Of a stretch of DNA of 64,000 nucleotides, positions 1,424 to 62,104 are shown piece after piece (the first letter of the stretch is position 1; each line of letters opens with the position of its first letter). The position numbers and the translations under genes are program-made. Location of the stretch: contig NADL03000699.1 of the NCBI GenBank assembly GCA_002205965.3, positions 1-64,000 of the forward strand, given 5' to 3'. Below the pieces are notes generated by a model, which worked only from the letters and a program-made list of their open reading frames with translations, searched no databases and had not been told where the DNA came from. This DNA is from Kappaphycus alvarezii (lineage: Eukaryota > Rhodophyta > Florideophyceae > Gigartinales > Solieriaceae).

Positions 1424-3070
1424 TCATGAAACAATCCTTACGGGGTGTGCCTCTGTATTATACACCCATTCCGTCAAAGGCAACCTGGTTCCTGTCAGTT
1501 TCCTCTCATCAAACAGAAGGAAAAAGTACTTTAGCGTCTCCGCAATCGCAAACGAATGTAGCTTGCCAGAGTGTAACAAGCCGTTTTTCTCCTTTTGCAA
1601 AAGGTGCATCGTCGAAGACAGCATCCCATCAGGTTTTCCCCGTACTTGACTGTACTCCCGTATTGACTTCCACATTTCCAGACCCCACCTCTTGTACTCC
1701 CCAGTCTCGTTCGGATCAATCGCATCCATGTAATACAAGGCCTCCACAATCTCCGGTCTCAACAGGTTTGTATCTTGCCATTCCGCGGGCCTCACATTCC
1801 CATTCCCAAAATCCGTCACCTCCCCTGCCAATCCGTGGTACATCCCTCTTGTCATCGCATAGCAGCTCTTCGTCAGCTCCCTCGCTCTCGTCATGTAATC
1901 GTTTTGCCCTCTTGCAAACACGCCTCCACCCAGCCCATGCAGCGCTGCATACGCCAAATTCCCTGGAAGGAAACATGTCAAGTGATCCATCTGACGTTTG
2001 AATGAATGTTCAACCCCTATTCTTTTCTCTCCTACGTACATGTAGCCCCCCTCGACACTCACCAACTCCTTGAACACTCCCTCAATAGCCTTTTCATACA
2101 ACGCCTTGTACCTCTCTTCTCTCTTCCCAAAGGCCACCCAACTTTTCACAAGCATTTCATAAAATGAATCGACCATCCCCGCAACAGTCAACCTTCTCCC
2201 GCGAAACATCCCGTTTTGCACATCAAAGGTGTCTGTCACCAAACCATCGGCCATCTTCTCAGCCGCCCCTACTAGACTATCCTGGCACTTGTCCACTAAT
2301 TCCTTATATGTACCAATCCCTGTAATCTCACTCAGTGTTCGAAACTCCAACTGTAACGTCCCGGCCTCCGCCGGATTACTAATCATAGCTCGCGATCCCA
2401 CCATCCGATGCACACCCCTCAGCGTCTCATCACCTTTTGTTTCAAGTGTACCCAACCACACTGAGGAATCAGGGCATCCAGTTCCTGTCAAGTTAAACTT
2501 GGTTGACAAATGATCTCCCAACTCCACAGCCTTCTCCTTCCATAAATCATCCCCAGTCAGCTGGTATGCAGAGTTCAACCCTCCCAGGGCGCGGATGACA
2601 ACCTCAAACATACTCACCATTCCCTGAGCATTGCCGAAATCCAACTGTTTTGCCGCCCACTCCCGTGACCTTTCGTATTCTTCCTTCAACCCCATCATGA
2701 GCAGGGTGTCCAAACTGTCCACCAAGGTCAATCCAATACCAAACCAATCCTCGCACCTCCCAGATGCGGGAATGAGTTCATCTTGCCCGAGACATTTGTC
2801 TAGATATTCATTGTAGAGAACCTTGGTGACGTTGCGAACATCGTGCTGCAGCTGATTCAGATGTACTGGAATGTTTACCGCCGCCAGTCGAGGCACAACC
2901 GGTGGGAAAATGGCAGCTTCAGGCGAGGTAAAGATGACTAGTAGCACGAAATTGATAACGAGAAGGAAGAAGACTGTAGCAGCACGGAGTGGGCGAGAAA
3001 GAGATTTTCGCAGGCGATGGAGCTTTCGCGGCTGCGGGTCTCGTCCCCGAGAGAAAGGAAAAAGACGCAT
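1424..3070 (-). CDS. Glycoside hydrolase family 47 alpha-1,2-mannosidase
   Basis: A single uninterrupted 548-residue frame for a class I alpha-1,2-mannosidase, which trims mannose from N-glycans in the ER or Golgi lumen. It is a type II membrane protein: a basic cytosolic tail (residues 1-30), then a hydrophobic anchor at about 31-48 (AATVFFLLVINFVLLVIF). All GH47 landmarks are in order: LVDSLDTLLMMG (116-127), MFEVVIRALGGL (154-165, with the catalytic Glu156), AEAGTLQLEF (234-243), MDHLTCFLPG (361-370, catalytic Asp and the disulfide-region Cys), LLRPEIVEALYYM (436-448, catalytic Glu), SFAIAETLKYFFLLF (506-520) and the calcium-binding NTEAHP (538-543). The length is normal for the family. 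No intron is needed. Which subtype it is (ER mannosidase I, Golgi mannosidase I or an EDEM-like protein) cannot be settled here, but the short stem and complete active site favour a processing mannosidase. Confidence 0.95.
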   Translation of the reverse strand: MRLFPFSRGRDPQPRKLHRLRKSLSRPLRAATVFFLLVINFVLLVIFTSPEAAIFPPVVPRLAAVNIPVHLNQLQHDVRNVTKVLYNEYLDKCLGQDELIPASGRCEDWFGIGLTLVDSLDTLLMMGLKEEYERSREWAAKQLDFGNAQGMVSMFEVVIRALGGLNSAYQLTGDDLWKEKAVELGDHLSTKFNLTGTGCPDSSVWLGTLETKGDETLRGVHRMVGSRAMISNPAEAGTLQLEFRTLSEITGIGTYKELVDKCQDSLVGAAEKMADGLVTDTFDVQNGMFRGRRLTVAGMVDSFYEMLVKSWVAFGKREERYKALYEKAIEGVFKELVSVEGGYMYVGEKRIGVEHSFKRQMDHLTCFLPGNLAYAALHGLGGGVFARGQNDYMTRARELTKSCYAMTRGMYHGLAGEVTDFGNGNVRPAEWQDTNLLRPEIVEALYYMDAIDPNETGEYKRWGLEMWKSIREYSQVRGKPDGMLSSTMHLLQKEKNGLLHSGKLHSFAIAETLKYFFLLFDERKLTGTRLPLTEWVYNTEAHPVRIVS

Positions 3071-4230
3071 GGCTAGAATCGATGTGGAAGGTTGACCTCA
3101 CGTCGGTACCTTCCAAAGCGACATGGTTATGAAATGAGGGATCTTTGCGTCAAGGGGCTTTGAGTATACACAGTTTTAGGGAGAAGTAGAATACTCGGAC
3201 GCCGATACATTTATGGGTGCATTATGGCAGGCATGGCAGGCAATGCGGTATTCGACGCAGTCATTGAGTGGAGAAATAAGCCTTGTCATTACTCGGCGGA
3301 ATACAGCAGTACAATAAAAGAGAACTGCTTCATATCTACTTGTTCTGTTTCGTACACGCACAAGCTCTCTCAGGGCAGTTTTTTCTCAATGTGTTCCGAG
3401 TACAGTACTGTACTGTACAGTATCCTACGTGCGGAACGATTGCATTCGCGAGAGTAAAGTGACTTACACCTGGAAAGCTGCAAATCGATACCGTACAATT
3501 GTACAGTACCATACGGCCCTGAGTCTCATGAAAGAAAAACTGTAAAGAGAGCGGGAGACCATGATTGAGAGCTTGCTTACAGTGCTTCTGCTACATGGAC
3601 GCCGCACGGCAGCGGCTGAAGCGATACGGGTGTCTACAGAGGGGAATAGAAGAAACTTAAACCTCATTAAGCAAGAAAATATCACTACTGTACCATACCG
3701 AAACTTTCGTCGGCCAACGCCGCGATGGAAAAAACTCTCATTGTACGCGTGATGCTTACAGATAGCGATGACAACGAGGACAGCTGTATAGTGTCGTACA
3801 GTACGTATTGTGCAGTACAGTACGGTTGATCCGTCTACAGTACAGAATGTGTGTTGAGGCAAATCGATCGTAAAACTACAATATACTGTACTGTCAGCAG
3901 TGGTTTGCAATCGTCCGACCCGCGTCGGAGTGCTTTACAGTAATTTAGCCACCTCGCCACTCGCATTTCCCGAGGAGGCAGGCACGAATTGTTCAGTAAG
4001 CAACCACCCGCGTTTTCTGACATCTTTCCCTCACAGGCCCTCTACCTTACCGCACTTGTAATCTTCTCTACATATGGATATTTGCTCGCACAATCTCCTT
4101 TCCAGGAGCTTGTACTCTCAGCGTGCCGTGTTATTACGCAATGACACCTCAAGATGGGTTTGCGTTCCCCTGTGATAAACATTGAGAATGCTGGCCGCTA
4201 GGATAAAAGGTACTCTCAAAATATTCAACT
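3071..4230. other. Intergenic with dispersed GTACAGTAC-type motifs
   Basis: No gene is supported. Several stretches carry TACTGTAC/GTACAGTAC words (around 3400-3422, 3490-3515, 3795-3850 and 3880-3895). Frames crossing the region have low-complexity compositions and do not match each other or any family I know. The first few hundred bases upstream of 3070 would contain the mannosidase promoter. Confidence 0.45.
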
Positions 4231-37189: not shown

Positions 37190-39408
37190 CTACGGAGCTG
37201 TAAAAACTGCAGCGAAAAACAGCATACTGTACTATGGTAGTACACTGTAAAATACAGAATTAACGTGTGCATTATATTTCTGGGACGTTGCAGAGGTGCA
37301 TTTGGACCTCTGTCGGTGCCAGGTAGTAGCGGCAGGGTCTCGAATTCATACCAATCCATTCCAATCCAAGCCTGCAGCGCGCAACACATGATAGGCGAGG
37401 ACGTTGCGGATTGAGTTGTGCCGGTGGATGCGGCCGAAACCCGAGGAACAGATATCAGCCGCATGGTCGCCATAGTTATCCAGTGGATTCTCACTTTGTT
37501 GACACTGGAGCGCCATCGAATCCGTGTAGACTGGAAGCCCGAGGTGTCGACGCCGCATTATGCTCCAATATGCAGCACAGACTTTCGATGCCGTTGTCGG
37601 GTGCGCCTGGAGGAAGGCGGGGGCAGCAGTGTTTCGAAAGCTAGGGGGCGGATCCGGCGGCGATTGCTTTGCGTACTGTAAACAGACGGACAGGGCACAT
37701 CTTTCCACATAGCATCTTCTGAGAACACCTTGGCCCTGGCCTATTCATTCATACACATTTACATAAGGTGCAGCTATTGCTGGGTGTGGCAGCAAGGGTG
37801 GCAGGGCCATGGGTGCCTAGGTCGTTGTGTACAGGGTTGCCACTGATGTGTCGCACAAAGTCTCGCAGCGTCGAACGGGCTCGAGCGAGACGGAAAGACC
37901 GAACCCAGCGGAAACTTTTGCCCAGGAGCGCCATTGATCTAGCGGTGCTGTACGTTGCTGTCCGCTGGCGTCCAGGGATAGCTTCCAGGAGGCTGGCGGC
38001 AACAGCGGCAGGTAGAAACGGAGCGACCAGCGAGAATCCTTGACCTCCATGGCGTGGCGGGAGACACACTTGGTCCCACCCATCGTCCGAGATGGCGATA
38101 TTATGGAGGGACGTGTGTGTCGAGCGCTGTAGCGAATCCAATTCGACCGCAGGATCGGCAGAGTGTGCGGGGTCGGCCAGCTTGAACGCATGATCGACCC
38201 GGCACGCCATGGCACATGGGCGATGCATATGAAATCGGGCCTGGGGATCCTGGACTTGTTCGAGAAGATGCAATACGCGGCGACATTCGACATTATGCCT
38301 CGTGGGAAAGCTATGGTAAAGGTGGAGTTACCTATGGCAGCGCCCAGCAGCTCGAAACCATCCTGGGAACACTCCGAGAACGGGAATTCCGCCAGGAAAA
38401 ACGCTCGGCCCGTGGCCCCCGAGTGTGGCCAGTAAATGCATGTCTTTGTCGCGTTGAGGAAGAGCCCAAACGACGGGCCGAAGCGATTGAGCAGACGCAG
38501 GACGCGCCGAAGACCACCACGCGTCCCATGACGGTGCCGTCATCCGGGTACCACTGGTTGAGAATTATGCCCTCCTCAGCTGCAATCTGCCGGAGAAGCG
38601 GCTGGGTCATAAGTGAGAAAAGCAGCATGCTCGCCGGGTCTCCCTGTTGCGTGCCCTGAGCACTAACAAGAGTAGTACGGTCGCGGTTTGGGATTAGCAA
38701 GGGTGGCTGCGTGCGACCGTAAAGCAAGTCCACGAAGCGTGCGAGTGTTGGGGCTCGTGTCGGTAGTAGCTCCAACATCGATTGCCGATCAACACAATTG
38801 AAGGCATTGTGTGCATCAATGAGGACTGTGGTGACTTGCGGGTGAGACGAGACATGTTTGAGCATAACTCTGGCATCGTGAACGATGGCATCAATGCCAG
38901 CCTTTATCCCGTTAGCCGTCTGGAAAGGGGCTAAGAACTCACGGGAGGCGTCAGTCGCCGAAGGGAACAGGGTCTTGGTAACTAGGCGCCGGAGGACGGA
39001 ACCCTCTGCGATTGGCCGTATCTTTCCAGGCTTCACCTGGATTGGTAGCAAGGTGGCAGCGGAGAGCAGGGGGAGGATATCATCCGGGAGCTCCCCATTA
39101 GCGATGCGTGTGACGAGTTTCGTGAGGACGCTGATGCCACTGACACCACTGTCAGGGCTGACGGGGGTCGTGGCCAGCAGATGGAAACATCGGGAGGGCG
39201 TACGTTCCGGGCCTGCGGCAGTATCATGTGGGATGCTGCATGCAGCCCGTGCGACGGCAGCCTCCGTAATGCGCGGGGGGTGGAGGGAGGCTGTTAAGTG
39301 AAAGTGGAACAATCGACCGAGCTCGAGCAGGGTGGAGGTCACGGAGCTTTGCGATTGTGCCAGGGTCGTTGACATCAGCCAGCGGGGAATCATTGCACAT
39401 TGGTGCAT
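37190..39408 (-). pseudogene. Non-LTR-type reverse transcriptase element, broken
   Basis: The main frame (39408-38332, 358 residues) carries an RT: TVLIDAHNAFNCVDRQSM is motif A, QGTQQGDPASMLLFSL is motif B, and NQWYPDDGTVMG is motif C with Ala of YADD replaced by Pro. Frame changes follow: PSFGLFLNATKTCIYWPHSG and FELLGAAIGN (about 38480-38330), LPPRHGGQGFSL (38045 area), then at 37708-37346 AYWSIMRRRHLGLPVYTDSM, a zinc-binding C-x-Q..GDHAAD..CSSGFGRIHRHN block, and VLRAAGLDW. No endonuclease domain is seen. At least three frameshifts make it inactive. It belongs to the same family as 15610-16205 and 48190-49110. Confidence 0.82.
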
Positions 39409-39641
39409 AATGCTGCGTCGACACCTCGGGCTTCCAGGCTAAACGGATGCGATTACGCTCCAGTGTCAACACTGAGAGAATCTACTGGATACCCGTGGCG
39501 ACCATGCGGCTGATACCGTATCTGTCCCTCGGGTATCGGCCGCATCCACCGGCACAACCCAATCCGCGACGTCCTCGCCTATCATGTGTTCCGCGCTGCA
39601 GGCTTCGACTATGAATTCGAAACCCCGCTGCTAATATCTGC
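39391..39641 (+). pseudogene. Inverted fragment of the same RT element (zinc region)
   Basis: The plus strand reads HWCIMLRRHLGLPG, GDHAADT, GIGRIHRHNPIRDVLAYHVF and RAAGFDYEFETPLL. This is the same segment as 37340-37585 on the minus strand, so the two stretches form an inverted repeat of about 245 bases at roughly 80-85 percent identity that encloses the RT domain. The fragment begins where the RT frame's first methionine lies, so the RT gene's 5' part is fused to this inverted piece. Confidence 0.75.
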
Positions 39642-48189: not shown

Positions 48190-49110
48190 TTTCTTTGGCG
48201 CGGGCAAGAGTACATTGGCACTACGAAGCCTGGGCGACTGCCCCAAACCCGACCGCTCACAGCGACGCCGACGTTCGACATCGCATCCGTGGCTTAGCGT
48301 TCCGCCGCAGCCCCGCTGCGGCGTTTCTCTTCGCTCACCCCACGGCAGCTACGAAGGTGCACACCACACACTGGCAGACCATGCTCCACCGTCACCTCGG
48401 ACTGCCAGTGTATGACTCGATGCCCCTCAACTGCCACCACTGTGACCATTCCCTGGACGCCCTCGGGGATCACGCCGCCGACCCCTGCTGCCCTGGTTTC
48501 GGCCCTCGTCACCGCCATGGCTCGCTCTGTTATGCGTTTGCGACACCCGTTACCCGCGCCGCGGGTCTGGATACTCGGCACGAGGTTCCGCTCCTCGTCC
48601 CGGACACTGAGCCCCGGCCCGCCGATATCCTTGTACAACGCCCCCCAACCCCGGAAGGCACAACGTTGCGCCCCATTGCGTTTGACATCACTGTCGTCTC
48701 CCCGTTCAACGCCGCAGTTCGCACCAAGGCGACCCAGGTTGCCGGTGGCGCTGCTGAAGTGGCGGCCCGCGACAAGGTTACAACTCTGGAACGCAACCTC
48801 GCCTGACGCCTCCCCGCTCCCTCAACTGTCCCATCTTCTGCGCCATACACGCCGAATTTCACGTTTCGACCTCTGGCATTTGATTCCCTGGGTGCCCCTT
48901 ACCCTGGTACTACTGCATTTCTCGAGGAGTTAGTTCCGCGCATCGTGTCCAAGTGTCACTCGACACTTGGCGTTATCCGCCGCCGTATCTACAGTACCAG
49001 CAACTGTACCAGCAACTGAGTTGCACCCTGTGGTCATCTATCGCTCAAGCTATCCTGTCCCGAGCCCCGATGCGCATGGATGACGAGGCACACCCGTTTA
49101 GATCCAAGCC
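48190..49110 (+). pseudogene. RT-element C-terminal domain, largest intact frame
   Basis: The 203-residue frame 48195-48806 holds AAFLFAHPTAATKVHTTHW, MLHRHLGLPVYDS, a zinc-binding block (Cys80, Cys83, GDHA at 91-94, Cys98, RHRH at 105-108), RPADIL (141-146), AFDITVVSPF (162-171) and ARDKVTTLERNLA at the end. After one frame change the tail continues to about 49000 (GVIRRRIY). The composition is GC-rich and high in arginine and proline, like the 37-39 kb relic. No RT core precedes it, so it is 5' truncated. It ends about 30 bases before the mariner inverted repeat. Confidence 0.75.
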
Positions 49111-49140
49111 GTACAGTTAGGACGTGCGCAGTCCCCTGTA

Positions 49141-49210
49141 CAGTGCCAGAAATTCAATTAGGACACCCTCTTTTCACCAATAACATGAGAACCAATATTT
49201 CAATTATAGC
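49141..49210. repeat. Mariner left inverted repeat, outer segment
   Basis: GACACCCTCTTTTCACCAAT and ATGAGAACCAAT match the complement of 58440-58521 (GACACCCCCTCTTTTCACCAAT, ATGAGAACCAAT). The segment stops at ATAGC (49206-49210), where the palindrome starts; the repeat resumes after the second ATAGC at 56360 (GAGACTTTGCCAGACCTATT against GGAACCTTGCCAAACCCATT). Confidence 0.92.
49206..49210. repeat. Target-site duplication ATAGC, left copy
   Basis: ATAGC immediately before TGATGGAAAGGG of the palindrome. The partner copy is 56355-56359. The undisturbed partner inverted repeat has a single AAAGC at the aligned position, so the pentamer was duplicated on insertion. Confidence 0.9.
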
Positions 49211-49424
49211 TGATGGAAAGGGATAACGGAAAAATGGAACGTTACGGAAGGTGGAACCGTCCGTAACCACCAGAAGACCAAACTCCCCTTCCAGCAAAAT
49301 CTCACTTCGTCCGAGCCACCTGAAAAAGACAAAATAGGGGATTTTAGTACTGTAGGAGTTGATTTTTATTGCAATTTTATGAGTTTAGTACTGTCTAGCG
49401 AAGAATTGAAAAAATTTCGCTGTC

Positions 49425-49432
49425 TATATAAA
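49425..49432 (+). promoter_or_regulatory. TATA box of left arm retroelement end
   Basis: TATATAAA about 215 bases inside the outer end, followed by CCCTGGTTCTAGCGG and a GC-rich leader. The position fits the U3/R border of an LTR. The same box occurs in the right arm at 56096-56103 on the minus strand. Confidence 0.6.
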
Positions 49433-49737
49433 CCCTGGTTCTAGCGGTCGGGCAGACCCTCGACACCAACAAGCACCAACAAAAAAATCCTGCAACCGAG
49501 AAAGCAACCAACTCAACCTGCCCCCCTTCCTCTCCCTCTGTGCACTACTAACCGACCCTCAGACCCCGCTCAGTGTCCGTCGTCGGGCGGCGTCGCTTGT
49601 GTGTATGCAAGGGCGTCATTCGGCGATACCTGAGAGTTTAGTCTACCTAAACTCCCTCGCTACAGAGGGCGGAGCACTTCGTGTGCACAGGTAAGCAAGG
49701 AACTGTTGGGGCAACTTCGCCCTAGTGGCATAAAGAG

Positions 49738-49856
49738 GTGGTGAGGTAAAGAAGTGGGAAAGAGGTAAAGAGGTGGGAAAGAGGCAAAGAAGTGGAAAAG
49801 AGGTAAAGAGGTGGGAAAGAGGGAAAGAGGCGGGAAAGAGTTAAAGAGGAGGGAAG
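49738..49856 (+). repeat. Purine-rich minisatellite (AAAGAGGTGGG-type units)
   Basis: About ten degenerate copies of GAGGTAAAGAGGTGGGAAA in the leader before the first ORF. The mirror copy at about 55675-55795 in the right arm is identical as far as I can see, including the order of the variant units. Confidence 0.85.
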
Positions 49857-49866
49857 CAGTGGATTA

Positions 49867-50712
49867 ATGCAGGAAGGCAACTCCGCTGGTTCCGCCCGTC
49901 GTCACACTCACCCTAACAGCTCCTCCGCAGGAGAGCCGACCTCGCCAACACCCAGTGGGTCGTCGGAACAAATTGACAAAATTATCGACTCCGTCATCGA
50001 AAAGGGACAGAACGAGCCCGAGGGTAGGAGCAATCGGTTGGAAACAGACTCCCAAACGTCGAGGGAGTCTGTGTACCCGGGAAGCAGGTTCATAGACGAC
50101 GAGGCGGAAGAGGGTAGCGAAGAGGACACCGAAAAGGAGGTAGAATTCGTAGGCAAATCCAGGGTTAGTCGGCGGCCGAGAAGTTCGAAAGGTAGGACTG
50201 GAACACTCCCAACGGTACCTAGAAAGGCAATACCAACGGACATCTTTGCACTGGGAGCGGCTTCGACGCATCGACAGGAAAGGGCGGTCGCCGGTAGAAG
50301 GAGGGAAGGTAAACTCCCGCTGGCACGACAAATTGCCCACAAGCCGCGCACCTCCAATCCCACTACCGGACCATCCACGGTCGACGTCGGTCGCGCCTGT
50401 TTAACGGCACTCTAGGTTAGTCAGGACAAGGGGAGAAAGAAGGCCAGAAGGAAGAAGAACGTAACGAGCCACCACTGCAAGGTTTGCAACTTCCGAACGC
50501 CGAGCAAAGACCAGTTTGAGGCCCACAAAGCCGGTCCTAAGCACCTCAACTCCGTAATTCGTCACACCAACCCCTCCGATCCCTCTGTCTGGACCAACCG
50601 CCTCCAGTGTGAGTGTGGCACTCGTGTAGGCTCGGAAGTTGACCTGCGCCTACATCTTTCCAGCCGAAAACACCGGAGGAACCTAGCGTACGGGAACAAC
50701 GAGAAATCCTGA
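49867..50712 (+). CDS. Retroelement acidic ORF with U1-like zinc fingers (left arm)
   Basis: An extra ORF upstream of gag. The first part (49867-50415, 182 residues) is acidic and disordered (EEGSEEDTEKEVEF at about 81-94). The frame meets TAG at 50413 and then continues open in the same frame as VSQDKGRKKARRKK, a basic patch, to 50712. That extension has two U1/matrin-like C2H2 fingers: HCKVCNFRTPSKDQFEAH with GPKHL, and LQCECGTRVGSEVDLRLH with SRKH. The product may bind nucleic acid or protein. Small indels between the arms change the frame between the two parts, so the exact join in the parent element is uncertain. Confidence 0.6.
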
Positions 50713-50779
50713 ATCTCATCTCTGCTTTGAATTGATTACAGCCCCGAAACAGTGAACTAGCGTAGAAACACCGAACCTA

Positions 50780-51604
50780 TTGAATTATTTAGAGGGAAAA
50801 AAGAGGGAAAAAAGGAGAAAAAACAACCCAAACACTTTTACAGTACAACGAAACCTATCCCTTCAGCACCGCGCAAAATTTGGTGCCATTATGGTACTCT
50901 TGTGGAGGGACTCCCAACACTCTCCAGAAGGGGCTTCGTCCGGACCCAGTGTACAGTTTTTCTCAGGCACTGGAGATGTCCGTCGGTTTTTCTTCTACTT
51001 CGAAAATGTTGTCATGGCGGGGAAGGCGAATGACGAAAAAGCTTTGAAACTACTGGCACATTTGGACGGCCCCGCTTTCGACTTCTATTATGATGCCTTC
51101 GCGAGTAATGGTTCTCTAACCGAAGAAGCAAAGAACTATGATCTCGTAAAGCCGCAAATGATAACAAATTTCGCTGCCGCAGAAGAATCGCAAGATGTAA
51201 TAAGGCAAGCACTAGAGGCCGAGTTGGATGTGGAAGATATTCCAGGATCGCTCAAACCCATAAGCAGGCTTTATGATAAAGACGGGTTTGACGATAGGGC
51301 AAAGTTTGGACTTTTGCGTTCCACTGCCTGCCGCCATAATGAAATAGCCCAGTTCCTGGCTTTCAGGGGGCCCAATGACTATGCAGGAATTGTTCAAGCC
51401 CTACGGGACTTCTGGTTTAATCGATTGACCTTCATGGGTTCTTCTTCTGCCCCAGGGCCATCCCATTTTACACCAACAAGACTGATGGTCCGCCCAGATG
51501 CTCGCACGAGGAATATCGAAAGTGAGGTCGATGCATTATCCGATGACTTATCCAAGTTAACATTGCTGATGAAAAACAGAAAAATGAGACCGGAAGCAAA
51601 TCGG
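50780..51604 (+). CDS. gag capsid-like protein (left arm)
   Basis: A reading frame open to 51805 whose first 275 residues are gag-like: SGTGDVRRFFFYFENVVMAG, then LKLLAHLDGPAFDFYY, FGLLRSTACRHNEIAQFLAF and FWFNRLTFMGSS, the helical pattern of Ty3/gypsy gag. Translation probably begins at Met38 (50891). The 51299 region has one G more than the right arm, which keeps this copy open where the right one is broken. The zinc knuckle that should follow in frame is one base off (next entry). Confidence 0.75.
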
Positions 51605-51795
51605 TGCAATTACATGGGGCACAGAGGGAAAGGTTGTTCTCTTACTGTCGGGAACGTGGTCACGGCGCTACAAGTTGTCCAAAGAACCCCCATCGCGACA
51701 CTAGGTGTACTAGCTGTGGTAAGGTGGGTCATTCAGAGGCAACTTGCTGGACAACGGCCAGAAAAACGGTGGAAGATGGGGAAGGTAACAAACCA
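51604..51795 (+). pseudogene. CCHC zinc knuckles in -1 frame (left arm)
   Basis: FSYCRERGHGATSC, then CTSCGKVGHSEATC. The second is a perfect C-x2-C-x4-H-x4-C knuckle; the first has Phe where its first Cys should be. They lie in the -1 frame relative to gag. The same frame relation occurs in the right arm, so it predates the palindrome: either an old mutation or a programmed shift. Confidence 0.75.
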
Positions 51796-52015
51796 GGAAA
51801 GGTAGTCGGCTGTGGCATTCTTACGGCCAGCACGGTATTCCACCACAAACTCATATTCTGCGAGAAAACCAAGCCAGCGGGCCAGTCTACCGTGAGTGTC
51901 CCTCTTTTGGGAGGCTTGACGCAAAGTTTTGTGGTCCGTTATGAGTGTAAAGGAGGTTGTTGACAAAAGATAGACTCTAAGCTTTCGCAAAGCGAAAATT
52001 ACAGCCAGAGCTTCC
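51795..52015 (-). pseudogene. Antisense gypsy RNase H fragment (left arm)
   Basis: The minus strand reads EALAVIFALRKLRVYLL, SFTLITDHKTLRQ, LARWLGFLAEYEFVVEYRAG and KNATADYLSW, the typical C-terminal half of gypsy RNase H (TDH-x-x-L, RLARW, E-Y-x-F-x-x-x-Y-R-x-G, N-x-x-A-D-x-L-S). It is opposite in strand to gag and protease on either side and replaces whatever joined them. The same fragment is at 53515-53735 in the right arm. Confidence 0.88.
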
Positions 52016-52444
52016 TAGGAAACCCAAAGTTGTCAGCCGGTCTAAAGTCGCTGCTGCAAGACAACTTCAGGAATATGTAAGGCGTTACGACGTCCTGTCT
52101 GAACTGGCAAATGCTAATTGCGGCCTAACATTTGGGCAACTTTTGAGAGGTGAAGCGGACGAAGCCAAGAAGGTGGTCCGAAAGTTATTAGGGAAACCCT
52201 CGCGGGCACGTGCGTCATTACTTACACAGCTATCACAGGATAACGACATCACAGACAGGCTGCTACGATTAGCGAAGCTTAGGATATATGGAACAGAAGT
52301 ATGGGCTCTGTTGGATTTCGGTGCAATTCCTGACGTAATGTCGAAAGAATTCATAAAAAAGCTCTGCATCATCCCGGAGAAAACTAGTCGAACTATCACG
52401 GTAGATAATGGTATCATGGCTTCTTGTGTGGGTACTGTCTCCGG
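51981..52444 (+). pseudogene. gypsy protease region, truncated at palindrome centre (left arm)
   Basis: Reads LPRKPKVVSRSKVAAA, YDVLSELANANCGLTFGQLL, then VWALLDFGAIPDVMS (52300-52344), the retropepsin D-T/S-G-A block with Phe in place of Thr/Ser, and IMASCVGTVSG at the break. The frame then runs into unrelated spacer sequence and stops at 52484. The right-arm copy continues normally past this point. Confidence 0.78.
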
Positions 52445-53085
52445 TAATCCCCTGCTTTCAGCATACTGTCGATCTCTTCCTTAACGATGGCGTTATGTCG
52501 TGGCGCCATACGTCGTGCCCTATGATAGACCGGTGTAGAGTCAACTAGCTCGAATCCATGGGTTACTGGTACTGAAGAGGGCAAATTTCAGTTATTTTCC
52601 ATGCCAAGATTCCAGTTTGTTTGAGGGCTTCATTAATACTGGCTTGGAATCCTTCTGGAAGATGATCCAACTTTGCTTGTAGCGCTCCTCTCAGTTCTTC
52701 CCTCTCATCTTCTGATTCGTCCCCGTTTGTGATGTCAGCCGACTTTGCTGACCAAGTGAGACTACCTCCATCCCTGATTGACAGTACCAGATCGTTCTTA
52801 CTATCAGAAGTTTCCGTAAAAAAGTCAGAATCGGAGGTGAAATCTTCGCATGGAGTCCCACTGAAATCACCCTTCTCAATCTTTGTGTCAATCGCTTTAA
52901 ATTATGGTTCCAATGGAAGGTGGACTTCTTTCTCCTCGTGGCGAATTATGAACGAGTCTGACTCGAAGTCCATCAATCCTCGAAGATTTTTCATAGTTGG
53001 TCGTCCAATAATGAGATCAAATGGTAAGTCCTCGACAAACAAATAGTTCAAAGGTATTGTCAGATCTAAGAAGGTTGTGGGGGCA
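52445..53085 (-). pseudogene. Asymmetric palindrome centre: protease end, linker, RT start
   Basis: Present only once. On the minus strand it continues the right-arm protease frame to 52902 (PTTFLDLTIPLNYLFVEDL, IGRPTMKN), followed by a linker (HLPEGFQASINEALKQTG at about 52670-52620) and the first RT block THGFELVDSTPVYHRARRMA, then HNAIVKEEIDSMLKAGD, which runs up to the junction at 52445. Gypsy RT starts with exactly such a P-x-R-x-x-x-x-P...I-x-x-M/L-L block. The rest of RT is missing, and the sequence turns directly into the left arm. Confidence 0.8.
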
Positions 53086-53549
53086 CCGGAGACAGTACCC
53101 ACACAAGAAGCCATGATACCATTATCTACCGTGATAGTTCGACTAGTTTTCTCCGGGATGATGCAGAGCTTTTTTATGAATTCTTTCGACATTACGTCAG
53201 GAATTGCACCGAAATCCAACAGAGCCCATACTTCTGTTCCATATATCCTTAGCTTCGCTAATCGTAGCAGCCTGTCTGTGATGTCGTTATCCTGTGATAG
53301 CTGTGTAAGTAATGACGCACGTGCCCGCGAGGGTTTCCCTAATAACTTTCGGACCACCTTCTTGGCTTCGTCCGCTTCACCTCTCAAAAGTTGCCCAAAT
53401 GTTAGGCCGCAATTAGCATTTGCCAGTTCAGACAGGACGTCGTAACGCCTTACATATTCCTGAAGTTGTCTTGCAGCAGCGACTTTAGACCGGCTGACAA
53501 CTTTGGGTTTCCTAGGAAGCTCTGGCTGTAATTTTCGCTTTGCGAAAGC
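52902..53549 (-). pseudogene. gypsy protease (right arm)
   Basis: A complete protease-region frame, including VWALLDFGAIPDVMS and, beyond the arm, FDLIIGRPTMKNLRGLMDFE, the usual flap and C-terminal I-I-G region of retropepsins. The active-site Thr/Ser is Phe, as in the left arm, so the mutation predates the palindrome. Confidence 0.75.
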
Positions 53550-53735
53550 TTAGAGTCTATCTTTTGTCAACAACCTCCTTTACACTCATAACGGACCACA
53601 AAACTTTGCGTCAAGCCTCCCAAAAGAGGGACACTCACGGTAGACTGGCCCGCTGGCTTGGTTTTCTCGCAGAATATGAGTTTGTGGTGGAATACCGTGC
53701 TGGCCGTAAGAATGCCACAGCCGACTACCTTTCCT
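53515..53735 (+). pseudogene. Antisense gypsy RNase H fragment (right arm)
   Basis: The same reading as 51795-52015, here on the plus strand, within a frame open from 53540 to 53797. It again lies opposite to its gag and protease neighbours. Confidence 0.88.
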
Positions 53736-54749
53736 GGTTTGTTACCTTCCCCATCTTCCACCGTTTTTCTGGCCGTTGTCCAGCAAGTTGCCTCTGAATG
53801 ACCCACCTTACCACAGCTAGTACACCTAGTGTCGCGATGGGGGTTCTTTGGACAACTTGTAGCGCCGTGACCACGTTCCCGACAGTAAGAGAACAACCTT
53901 TCCCTCTGTGCCCCATGTAATTGCACCGATTTGCTTCCGGTCTCATTTTTCTGTTTTTCATCAGCAATGTTAACTTGGATAAGTCATCGGATAATGCATC
54001 GACCTCACTTTCGATATTCCTCGTGCGAGCATCTGGGCGGACCATCAGTCTTGTTGGTGTAAAATGGGATGGCCCTGGGGCAGAAGAAGAACCCATGAAG
54101 GTCAATCGATTAAACCAGAAGTCCCGTAGGGCTTGAACAATTCCTGCATAGTCATTGGGCCCCCTGAAAGCCAGGAACTGGGCTATTTCATTATGGCGGC
54201 AGGCAGTGGAACGCAAAAGTCCAAACTTTGCCTATCGTCAAACCCGTCTTTATCATAAAGCCTGCTTATGGGTTTGAGCGATCCTGGAATATCTTCCACA
54301 TCCAACTCGGCCTCTAGTGCTTGCCTTATTACATCTTGCGATTCTTCTGCGGCAGCGAAATTTGTTATCATTTGCGGCTTTACGAGATCATAGTTCTTTG
54401 CTTCTTCGGTTAGAGAACCATTACTCGCGAAGGCATCATAATAGAAGTCGAAAGCGGGGCCGTCCAAATGTGCCAGTAGTTTCAAAGCTTTTTCGTCATT
54501 CGCCTTCCCCGCCATGACAACATTTTCGAAGTAGAAGAAAAACCGACGGACATCTCCAGTGCCTGAGAAAAACTGTACACTGGGTCCGGACGAAGCCCCT
54601 TCTGGAGAGTGTTGGGAGTCCCTCCACAAGAGTACCATAATGGCACCAAATTTTGCGCGGTGCTGAAGGGATAGGTTTCGTTGTACTGTAAAAGTGTTTG
54701 GGTTGTTTTTTCTCCTTTTTTCCCTCTTTTTTCCCTCTAAATAATTCAA
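53735..54749 (-). pseudogene. gag and CCHC (right arm), frameshifted
   Basis: Gag is split into 54749-54183 and 54216-53930 by loss of one G at about 54230 relative to the left arm. The CCHC knuckles (53926-53735) lie in the -1 frame as on the left, including the Phe in place of the first Cys. Confidence 0.78.
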
Positions 54750-54816
54750 TAGGTTCGGTGTTTCTACGCTAGTTCACTGTTTCGGGGCTGTAATCAATTC
54801 AAAGCAGAGATGAGAT

Positions 54817-55660
54817 TCAGGATTTCTCGTTGTTCCCGTACGCTAGGTTCCTCCGGTGTTTTCGGCTGGAAAGATGTAGGCGCAGGTCAACTTCCGAGCC
54901 TACACGAGTGCCACACTCACACTGGAGGCGGTTGGTCCAGACAGAGGGATCGGAGGGGTTGGTGTGACGAATTACGGAGTTGAGGTGCTTAGGACCGGCT
55001 TTGTGGGCCTCAAACTGGTCTTTGCTCGGCGTTCGGAAGTTGCAAACCTTGCAGTGGTGGCTCGTTACGTTCTTCTTCCTTCTGGCATTCTTTCTCCCTT
55101 GTCCTGACTAACCTAGAGTGCCGTTAAACAGGCGCGACCGACGTCGACCGTGGATGGTCCGGTAGTGGGATTGGGGGCGCGCGGCTTGTGGGCAATTTGT
55201 CGTGCCAGCGGGAGTTTACCTTCCCTCCTTCTACCGGCGACCGCCCTTTCCTGTCGATGCGTCGAAGCCGCTCCAGTACAAAGATGTCCGTTGGTGTTGC
55301 CTTTCTAGGTACCGTTGGGAGTGTTCCAGTCCTACCTTTCGAACTTCTCGGCCGCCGACTAACCCTGGATTCGCCTACGAATTCTACCTCCTTTTCGGTG
55401 TCCTCTTCGCTACCCTCTTCCGCCTCGTCGTCTATGAACCTGCTTCCCGGGTACACAGACTCCCTCGACGTTTGGGAGTCTGTTTCCAACCGATTGCTCC
55501 TACCCTCGGGCTCGTTCTGTCCCTTTTCGATGACGGAGTCGATAATTTTGTCAATTTGTTCCGACGACCCACTGGGTGTTGGCGAGGTCGGCTCTCCTGC
55601 GGAGGAGCTGTTAGGGTGAGTGTGACGACGGGCGGAACCAGCGGAGTTGCCTTCCTGCAT
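54817..55660 (-). pseudogene. Acidic ORF with U1-like zinc fingers (right arm)
   Basis: The first part, 55660-55124, is 178 residues. It differs from the left arm after DIF because of a missing base, ending RSTSVAPV in another frame. The zinc-finger part (about 55100-54817) is intact as sequence but displaced by one base (AAGGGA here against AAGGGGA on the left). Confidence 0.6.
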
Positions 55661-55674
55661 TAATCCACTGCTTC

Positions 55675-55795
55675 CCTCCTCTTTAACTCTTTCCCGCCTC
55701 TTTCCCTCTTTCCCACCTCTTTACCTCTTTTCCACTTCTTTGCCTCTTTCCCACCTCTTTACCTCTTTCCCACTTCTTTACCTCACCACCTCTTT
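55675..55795 (-). repeat. Purine minisatellite (right arm)
   Basis: The mirror copy of 49738-49856, with units in identical order. Confidence 0.85.
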
Positions 55796-56095
55796 ATGCC
55801 ACTAGGGCGAAGTTGCCCCAACAGTTCCTTGCTTACCTGTGCACACGAAGTGCTCCGCCCTCTGTAGCGAGGGAGTTTAGGTAGACTAAACTCTCAGGTA
55901 TCGCCGAATGACGCCCTTGCATACACACAAGCGACGCCGCCCGACGACGGACACTGAGCGGGGTCTGAGGGTCGGTTAGTAGTGCACAGAGGGAGAGGAA
56001 GGGGGGGCAGGTTGAGTTGGTTGCTTTCTCGGTTGCAGGATTTTTTTGTTGGTGCTTGTTGGTGTCGAGGGTCTGCCCGACCGCTAGAACCAGGG

Positions 56096-56103
56096 TTTAT
56101 ATA
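56096..56103 (-). promoter_or_regulatory. TATA box of right arm retroelement end
   Basis: The complement of TATATAAA, mirror of 49425-49432. If both are active, transcription would run inward from both ends and give self-complementary RNA. Confidence 0.6.
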
Positions 56104-56354
56104 GACAGCGAAATTTTTTCAATTCTTCGCTAGACAGTACTAAACTCATAAAATTGCAATAAAAATCAACTCCTACAGTACTAAAATCCCCTATTTTGTC
56201 TTTTTCAGGTGGCTCGGACGAAGTGAGATTTTGCTGGAAGGGGAGTTTGGTCTTCTGGTGGTTCCGGGGGTTCCACTTTCCGTAACGTTCCAATTTGTTA
56301 CGGAAGGTTCCAACCGTCCGTAACGTTCCATTTTTCCGTTATCCCTTTCCATCA

Positions 56355-56359
56355 ATAGC
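56355..56359. repeat. Target-site duplication ATAGC, right copy
   Basis: Directly follows CCATCA at the palindrome end. Pairs with 49206-49210. Confidence 0.9.
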
Positions 56360-56478
56360 GAGACTTTGCCAGACCTATTCTTTCTATCTATTATATAAAG
56401 AAGCTGTCTTGTGTTCAATCGCCAATTATTTTTTAAAAAATATCTAAAAAGGCTGCCAAGGATGGGGAAATCCGATTA
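56360..56478. repeat. Mariner left inverted repeat, inner segment
   Basis: Continues 49141-49210 and matches the complement of about 58327-58445, for example TTTTTAAAAAATATCTAAAA against TTTTTTTAAAAATATCTAAAA and GGATGGGGAAATCCGATTA against GGAGGAGGGAATCTGATTA. Confidence 0.9.
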
Positions 56479-56604
56479 AAACATTTTGTCAGTATGTAGT
56501 ACTGTAGTATTAGGGTGTTCCCGCCAATTATACCCCTTTAAAGTACTGAAACTGCTTCCTGGCTGTTTGGGACTTGACCCAAACAGCCCACCAACACTAA
56601 CAAC

Positions 56605-58326: not shown

Positions 58327-58521
58327 GTAATCAGATTCCCTCCTCCCTGGTAGCCTTTTTTAGATATTTTTAAAAAAATAATCAGCGAATGAATACAAGG
58401 TTTAGCCTCTTTATGTAATAGAAGGAAAGAATGGGTTTGGCAAGGTTCCGCTTTAGTTGAGTTATTGGTTCTCATTTTATTGGTGAAAAGAGGGGGTGTC
58501 GTAATTAAATTTCCGGCACCG
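58327..58521. repeat. Mariner right inverted repeat
   Basis: An intact inverted repeat of about 195 bases, used above to show that the palindrome interrupts its partner. Ends GGCACCG followed by TA. Confidence 0.9.
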
Positions 58522-58574
58522 TAGATACTGAATGCATTAAACTTCTTTTCTCTTGTCAGTTGTCCCGAGAGATA

Positions 58575-61079: not shown

Positions 61080-62104
61080 GTGCAATCTCATCCGAGAGCG
61101 AGGAAGAGGACGGATTAATTGATGCAGTTATTTCCACTGTCTCGATCGCAATTAAAGATGAGAATGCATTGTGGGAGGTGGGTAGTCACGCTGAAGCTAA
61201 ACCCTGGGGTGGGTCAAAGCCTGGTCGTCGTCCAAGTTGGGATATAAGGAGCACGGTCGGGGGGAGCAAGTCGATCTTGACTATTTACAACGAAACTCCC
61301 CAGAAACACCTATTATGTTAGAAGAGGAGTTTGAGAGGCATTTTTCAGTTACAAGGGCAATATATGAAAGGGTGCGACGTGACGCTATTGATTTTAGTCC
61401 TCTTTTCAAACAAAAGGCCGCCGCTCTCGGGGTATTTGGGGGCTTGACAGTCCAAAAGCTAACAGCTGTGCTCCATTTGTTAAGGGGTGGAATGACTGCT
61501 GAAAAAGTCGTAGAGTACGTTCTTCTATCTGATAGTATAATTTTGAAGTGTTTATTGTGTTTCTGTTCTGCTTTTACCACTATGCATGAGAAGACGAGGT
61601 TACGAAGACCAGACGTAGATTATATTAGACTGATAGAAGCAAATTACACAGAACTTGGCTTTCTGGGCTGCTTAGGTTGTGTTGGCTGCTCTTCGTGGTT
61701 TTGGAATAAATGCCCCATTAACTGGCGGGGAGTTTACAAAGAGAAAGAAAAAATCGCCAGTATGTCAGATGGAGGTGGTCTGTGATGATAAACTACGAAT
61801 TTGGCATTCAATATTCCACACATCGGGCTCAAAAACGAAAATTCGATTCTAGCTCAGAGCAGCTTCTTCAAAGTCATTCGAGCTGGCCGCTGCCCCCCTT
61901 TCAGCCCACGACAAATATTGAAGGTATGGAGCTGTCATGGTTCTATTTTCTAGCGGATGGGATCTACCCCTATTATCGTCTTTTCGGTAAAAACTACCCA
62001 AATACCCGGAATTGTAGGGAACAAAGGTTCAACAGGCAACGAGGGTGTGCTAGAAAAGGGCTAGAGGGATATTTGTGGTACGGTATGGACAGTTCGAGAT
62101 TATA
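61080..62104 (+). pseudogene. PIF/Harbinger transposase relic
   Basis: Blocks typical of PIF/Harbinger nuclease: SKPGRRPSWDIRS, then after a frame change DLDYLQRNSPETPIMLEEEF, FKQKAAALGVFGGLTVQKLT, AVLHLLRGGMTAEKVVEYVL, ELGFLGCLGCVGCSSWFWNK, CPINWRGVYK (61237-61785), then IWHSIFHTSGS and WFYFLADGIYPYYRLF (61920-62000) with RKGLEGYLWYG as the remnant of the R-K-x-V-E-R-A-F-G-V-L block. The first catalytic Asp of the family block GSIDCxHWxWKNCP is replaced (GCVGC). Frameshifts occur near 61260 and 61790. No accessory Myb-like protein was identified. Confidence 0.8.

Follow-up and report, generated by a model that had tools for sequence, protein, structure and literature searches.

How can a long terminal repeat (LTR) retrotransposon come to lie in a genome as a palindrome that presents the same U3 end on either side? 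The question is raised by the unit at 49211-56354 of the window, by which we mean the whole stretch of DNA that was analysed, positions 1 to 64,000 of contig NADL03000699.1 of Kappaphycus alvarezii (GCA_002205965.3), to which the coordinates refer. The unit was inserted once, into the terminal repeat of a Tc1/mariner-like element, and both of its outer ends are U3 ends of a Ty3/gypsy-type family. We propose, with a probability of roughly 0.6, that a polarity-inverting template switch gave rise to a linear palindromic complementary DNA (cDNA), which was then inserted by integrase (IN) through its two U3 ends.

Insertion into a Tc1/mariner-like terminal repeat

The unit is bordered on either side by ATAGC (49206-49210 and 56355-56359, both on the + strand), which flank comparison and empty-site alignment identify as the target-site duplication (TSD). 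Its inverted arms, 49211-52445 (3,235 nt) and 53085-56354 (3,270 nt), enclose a single-copy spacer of 639 nt (52446-53084, - strand). In a gapped alignment the arms differ by 9 substitutions and five 1-nt indels, and the left arm is without a 36-nt block of U3 tandem repeats that is found in the right arm. Because of the indels between the arms, an ungapped comparison looks poor. The first 38 bases of the outer ends are identical between left and right.

When 49100-49210 is joined to 56360-56500 with a single ATAGC retained, the join aligns over ~195 nt to the complement of 58328-58523, and a single ATAGC scores higher than two (208 versus 199). The two parts of the interrupted terminal repeat are found at 49139-49210 and 56360-56478 (both + strand), and the intact partner repeat, located by inverted-repeat search and alignment, at 58328-58523 (- strand). 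Between the repeats, one open reading frame piece matches the Pfam helix-turn-helix model HTH_Tnp_Tc3_1 (E 6.9e-8). Two further pieces there gave no Pfam match; the transposase is seen by its helix-turn-helix only, with the catalytic domain unmatched. A preliminary description of this DNA had called the host repeat mariner, which the inverted repeats and the HTH_Tnp_Tc3_1 match bear out at the level of Tc1/mariner-like. It had also claimed one integration event with a 5-bp duplication, and this is upheld by the ATAGC on both sides and by the empty site that is restored with one copy.

It is thus confirmed that 49211-56354 is a single inserted unit within a Tc1/mariner-like terminal repeat, and the finding is real to the extent that an assembly can show. 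An inverted repeat of 3.2 kb with an exact 5-bp duplication at its borders cannot seriously be put down to chance. Two nested or neighbouring insertions are ruled out by the single TSD together with the empty-site alignment. Since the TSD abuts a U3 end on the left as well as on the right, an inverted duplication of the element after its insertion is also rejected.

Anatomy of the unit and its parent family

The parent family was sampled with the first 310 nt as query against the 884 contigs (336 Mb) of the assembly. From 102 candidate places 40 were scored. The loci fetched were 20 of 9-10 kb and 20 of 2.3 kb, and 27 of these 40 were lined up for their flanks. Exact 5-bp duplications flank 14 of these LTRs and duplications with 4/5 bases flank 6 (14/20 and 6/20 of the parsed solo LTRs, respectively); five are preceded by a polypurine tract (PPT)-like sequence and are therefore 3' LTRs, and two were unparsed. 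The family LTR runs TGATGG...CCATTA, with a long form of ~1.6-1.74 kb; among the 20 loci of 2.3 kb, 10 have the long form (~1.6-1.72 kb) and 10 have a short one (~0.7-1.2 kb) without part of the middle. At the U5 end, 22 of the 25 parsed LTRs read CCATTA and the remainder CAATTA, GCATTA or CCCTTA, with CCATCA in 0 of 25. Since the ends of the window unit are TGATGG and CCATCA, the family U5 end is CCATTA, and a primer-binding site (PBS) lies inward of each LTR, the comparison supports the view, already taken in the preliminary description, that both outer ends are U3.

From outside to inside, each arm consists of an LTR, an 18-nt PBS, gag with a zinc knuckle, an antisense RNase H fragment and protease (PR). 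In the left arm the LTR, TGATGG...GGTGCCATTA, occupies 49211-50891 (+) with U3 outward, followed by the PBS, TGGTACTCTTGTGGAGGG, at 50892-50909 (+). The gag-like segment with its zinc knuckle is at 51023-51806 (+; 93% to the relative L020, in whose homologue the knuckle match lies below the Pfam cut-off), the RNase H fragment at 51797-52015 (-) and the protease segment, corresponding to L020 3895-4329, at 52010-52445 (+). In the right arm the protease segment is at 53085-53520 (-; Asp_protease E 5.6e-4, under the curated cut-off), the RNase H fragment, antisense to the element of that arm, at 53515-53733 (+), the gag-like segment at 53724-54506 (-), the PBS at 54620-54637 (-) and the inverted LTR, U3 outward and ending CCATCA, at 54638-56354 (-). 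The limits of the LTRs were set by family comparison and the U5-PBS boundary, those of the PBSs by LTR and U5-PBS comparison, and those of the RNase H fragments and right gag-like segment by comparison with relatives. The arm alignment identifies the spacer as the continuation of the right arm, running from protease into N-terminal reverse transcriptase (RT). At the polarity switch (52445-52446) sense protease is joined to antisense RT with ~1 nt of shared sequence. The element part of the unit ends in RT, and complete RT and IN are both lacking. With the LTRs inverted, no direct U3...U5 arrangement is present in the unit, nor was a PPT found beside its LTRs, which are flanked inward by the PBS and outward by ATAGC.

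The antisense RNase H patch stands in place of a gag-protease linker of ~190 nt, and its borders share ~AGGYAGT and TCC(T) with the neighbouring sequence. An assembly search with the patch region, in which 25 of 25 candidates were scored, showed the complete arrangement in both arms of the window and in no other candidate. Six loci are without the patch and have gag and protease ~190 nt apart (C133, C567, C733, C736, C753 and C770).

The coding capacity of the family was read from two relatives. L009 has direct LTRs that are 99.6% identical over 571 nt and a TSD of GTAAT, although its 5' LTR is without U5 and PBS; L020 is described below. Pieces of L020 and L009 match the Pfam models RVT_1 (E 1e-25), Integrase_H2C2 (E 2.5e-17), RT_RNaseH (E 8.1e-23 and 8.5e-38) and rve (E 2.8e-5, under its cut-off), and 4 of the 8 pieces match above a curated cut-off. 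The domain order read from coordinates is PR-RT-RNase H-IN, with a weak protease match below the cut-off. Since RT, RNase H and integrase pieces are found in L020 and L009, the parent family is classed, on these sequence matches, as Ty3/gypsy-type. In a protein search the PR-RT piece of L020 gave 57 matches, two of which carry organism names, both distant. The 18-nt PBS starts with TGG at the LTR end and is putatively complementary to a tRNA 3' end.

The long LTR also holds an open frame of ~300 codons (49807-50712 in the left LTR), which is broken in the window and full-length in 3 of the 11 long LTRs translated (L018, 306 residues; L021, 321; L025, 301). This frame, a protein gene within the LTR that is absent from the short-LTR forms, encodes C2H2 zinc fingers (zf-met, E 7.4e-10). 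The ratio of non-synonymous to synonymous substitution rates (dN/dS) is 0.51-0.62 in 3/3 pairs and third codon positions are the most variable in 5/8 comparisons, suggesting modest constraint.

Polarity-inverted relatives

A search for U5-PBS junctions that allowed up to 3 mismatches gave 15 matches, 6 exact and 9 with 3 mismatches. All 6 exact junctions are found in polarity-inverted structures, at four loci: two in the window, two in L015 and one each in L012 and L019. Three of the nine junctions with 3 mismatches were assessed for their arrangement: C567 (L057) is normal, and C753 and C770, from a sister group at 82-89%, have normal order and polarity as judged from the matches of the patch-region search. 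The other six are those of C488, C502, C645, C679, C705 and C782.

L015 comprises an LTR, a PBS and ~285 nt of leader plus gag, followed by an inverted LTR that begins exactly where the 18-nt PBS ends (one further base is ambiguous) and is without its outer part; the arms are 99.2% identical over 752 nt. In L019 the LTR and PBS lead into ~377 nt of antisense RT. The 3' terminus of the 18-nt PBS, TGTGGAGGG, is also present at the matching RT position of both L009 and L020, and L019 itself carries 8/9 of these bases, which places the exact switch point within TGTGGAGGG. In L020 a sense stretch that runs from gag to RNase H is joined to an inverted LTR at the U5/PBS border, and the far end is truncated; compared with the empty site in L014, its duplication is only CGA (3 bp). 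L012 has an LTR, two tandem 35-nt copies resembling a tRNA 3' end and ending CCA, and then an inverted, truncated LTR.

Plus-strand strong-stop DNA stops after 18 nt of the tRNA owing to a modified base. The L015 junction fits the end of such DNA exactly, and L019 is compatible with it, if less sharp. Since both junctions lie where strong-stop DNA should end, they support switching during synthesis in the family, but not directly for the window. The normal transfer of plus-strand strong-stop DNA takes place via the PBS, as stated in a passage of PMC4668388.

Three minor observations concern these and related loci. The tRNA-3'-end-like stretch of L012 (6150-6450), at 35 nt, exceeds the 18-nt PBS and has a B-box-like T-arm; it gave no Rfam match, and the tandem copies suggest a primer tRNA copied beyond the usual stop. 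In L058 (1056-1200) the place of the LTR before the PBS is taken by a sense RT fragment, not inverted, which meets the PBS at its start. L053, L054 and L056 have a common 5' breakpoint within the element interior and so probably go back to the duplication of a single stretch.

Origin of the palindrome

We propose that the parent, a Ty3/gypsy-type element with a long LTR, a tRNA-type PBS and the order gag-PR-RT-RNase H-IN, would have been reverse transcribed with polarity-inverting template switches. A plus strand (U3-R-U5-PBS-gag-PR...) would leave its minus-strand DNA template and then extend on a plus strand, whether a displaced one, a second one or itself, back to the start of U3. The product would be a linear palindrome with a U3 terminus at either end. 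If its first part stayed paired with its minus strand and its second with the copied plus strand, it would already be a nicked linear duplex, and the one-ended hairpin would be avoided. Integrase, which would normally act on U3 (TGATGG) and the near-identical U5 (TAATGG on the complement), would use two U3 ends and insert the DNA into the Tc1/mariner-like element with the usual 5-bp duplication. In a passage of PMC12789967 the sites of retroviral integrase at U3 and U5 are described as imperfect inverted repeats, and since the U3 and U5 ends of this family share T(G/A)ATGG, it is plausible that its integrase would accept U3 at both ends. We infer the strand that was copied, the completion of the duplex before integration, and the action of integrase rather than repair at both joints.

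Several observations weigh against this proposal. The central junction lies in protease/RT, away from the PBS, and has ~1 nt shared, so that an end-joining scar is equally possible. Among the inverted loci, two intact U3 ends are found only in the window, and L012, L015, L019 and L020 each have a truncated end. Furthermore, a direct source copy was not found among the 40 LTR candidates scored out of 102 or among the interior candidates of the patch-region search, the nearest LTRs being 94-96% and the nearest interior 95% identical to the unit. With no near-identical source, the RNase H patch could predate the palindrome in a source that has been lost, and its uniqueness, weakened as an argument, proves no self-copying. 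With the gapped U3 end left aside, the LTRs of the two arms show 9 differences, 5 of them private to one arm and 4 with a state known from another copy. This means that two different templates are possible, as are later mutation and consensus error. In the LTR tree the shared branch of the window arms is 0.024 versus 0.003 and 0.002 for their own branches, and that of L015 is 0.036 versus 0.001 and 0.004. However, the control L009, with direct LTRs, has the same pattern (0.031 versus 0.0017 and 0.0018), and arm identity is therefore no special evidence and provides no clock. Gene conversion between the arms is not claimed, since this ordinary element behaves likewise; the long shared branches could mean either that LTR pairs are homogenised whatever their orientation or that there were several insertions from sources now absent. 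Changes private to the window in gag and PR-RT (15 synonymous, 40 non-synonymous) were left unused because the frame meets 6 and 4 stops and is partly out of frame.

The main rival, which we consider unlikely, is that two truncated cDNAs of one particle were joined concertedly to the target by their U3 ends, while their broken inner ends, in protease and RT, were end-joined by the host. Two U3 ends would then arise without a prior palindromic duplex, the ~1 nt in common at the centre would be accommodated, as would the 4 of 9 LTR differences that match another copy, and the spacer would result from unequal truncation; the single-copy spacer fits such a joining and a switch between two plus strands equally well. 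Yet the antisense RNase H patch is in both arms, so that a patched source or sources would be needed for both cDNAs, and the strong-stop fit of the L015 and L019 junctions points to switching during synthesis. The preliminary description had favoured integration of a palindromic, snap-back cDNA. Its single insertion and two U3 ends stand, but the snap-back step is unproven; concerted integration needs two ends and a hairpin has one open end. For an intramolecular event, the plus strand would have to fold with a 639-nt loop and copy itself to U3, the hairpin being opened later to a linear duplex. Self-copying predicts the near-identical arms with their shared unique patch, but the foldback would depend on ~1 nt of pairing, an additional opening or copying step must be assumed, and 4 of the 9 LTR differences occur in other copies, making this route distinctly improbable.

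An assembly or read artefact, such as a fold-back read, is very improbable given the exact TSD, the clean empty site, the asymmetric spacer, the 36-nt indel between the arms and the fact that the family has in L015 a second locus resembling a palindrome. It is favoured by one-base gaps of the right arm at 50253, 50430 and 51297 and by a cluster of differences, which could be consensus errors: 8 of 14 arm differences (9 substitutions and 5 one-base indels, the 36-nt block excluded) fall within <300 nt, at 50155-50442 versus 55087-55372, and two of the eight are one-base gaps of the right arm. Long inverted repeats are typical of foldback (FB-like) elements, as is duplication of the target. The window unit shares both features, and a new foldback class using gypsy ends had been offered as the alternative. 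However, an assembly-wide search that allowed up to 2 mismatches gave 46 LTR starts (five of them, C99, C488, C610, C805 and C855, unfetched). Among these, only the two of the window unit face inward within 10 kb of each other, and only those of L009 form a direct pair. Since there is a single inward-facing pair, and no multiple complete copies or further palindromic units came out of this search, the unit does not belong to a foldback family; its ends are retroelement U3 ends, and its relatives comprise solo LTRs with U3 and U5 ends and an element with direct LTRs. A foldback-type DNA transposon family is accordingly rejected as extremely unlikely.

The unit resembles Ty3/gypsy LTR retrotransposons in having a PBS adjoining the LTR, a 5-bp TSD, and relatives with PR-RT-RNase H-IN or in the form of solo LTRs, but it differs in its inverted LTRs, its two U3 ends and its lack of an LTR-side PPT, complete RT and IN. 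Among aberrant retroviral DNAs, a circular murine leukaemia virus DNA containing an inverted segment was reportedly described by Shoemaker et al. in 1980. Self-priming of HIV minus-strand strong-stop DNA is treated in part of PMC4668388. Such self-priming products and inverted circles likewise show an inversion of polarity that arose in reverse transcription or integration, but they are unintegrated or circular, whereas the window unit is a linear palindrome that was integrated between the two copies of a TSD and has U3 at either end. A palindromic LTR element integrated with U3 at both ends was not recognised in the literature as covered by titles and the beginnings of abstracts, with thin coverage of subscription journals. 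The preliminary description holds in its main lines, with its snap-back step unproven, and the unit is best seen as a product of faulty reverse transcription that was caught as a complete U3-U3 integration. Found in nature and resolved at the level of sequence, it suggests that DNA with two U3 ends can be inserted by the integrase of an LTR retrotransposon, and that cDNA of inverted polarity sometimes escapes being a dead end.

Direct LTRs recombine to solo LTRs, and inverted LTRs cannot. The high inverted share among PBS-bearing copies may reflect survivorship and gives no rate at integration. A tentative and rather unlikely extension is that the family habitually mis-transfers plus-strand strong-stop DNA onto plus strands, and that the resulting inverted-LTR cDNAs integrate by two U3 ends and dominate the surviving interior-bearing copies because LTR-LTR recombination cannot collapse them to solo LTRs. 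If so, such copies would be a form of LTR retrotransposon that protects itself but can no longer replicate. Both the formation of palindromic cDNA by strong-stop mispriming and the persistence of inverted LTRs through escape from LTR-LTR excision become testable.

Elsewhere in the window there are a glycosyl hydrolase family 47 gene at 1424-3097 (-; E 6.9e-107), an additional reverse transcriptase in a GC-rich stretch at 38332-39438 (-; RVT_1, E 3.5e-7) and a match to the Plant_tran transposase model at 61201-61785 (+; E 9.4e-6).

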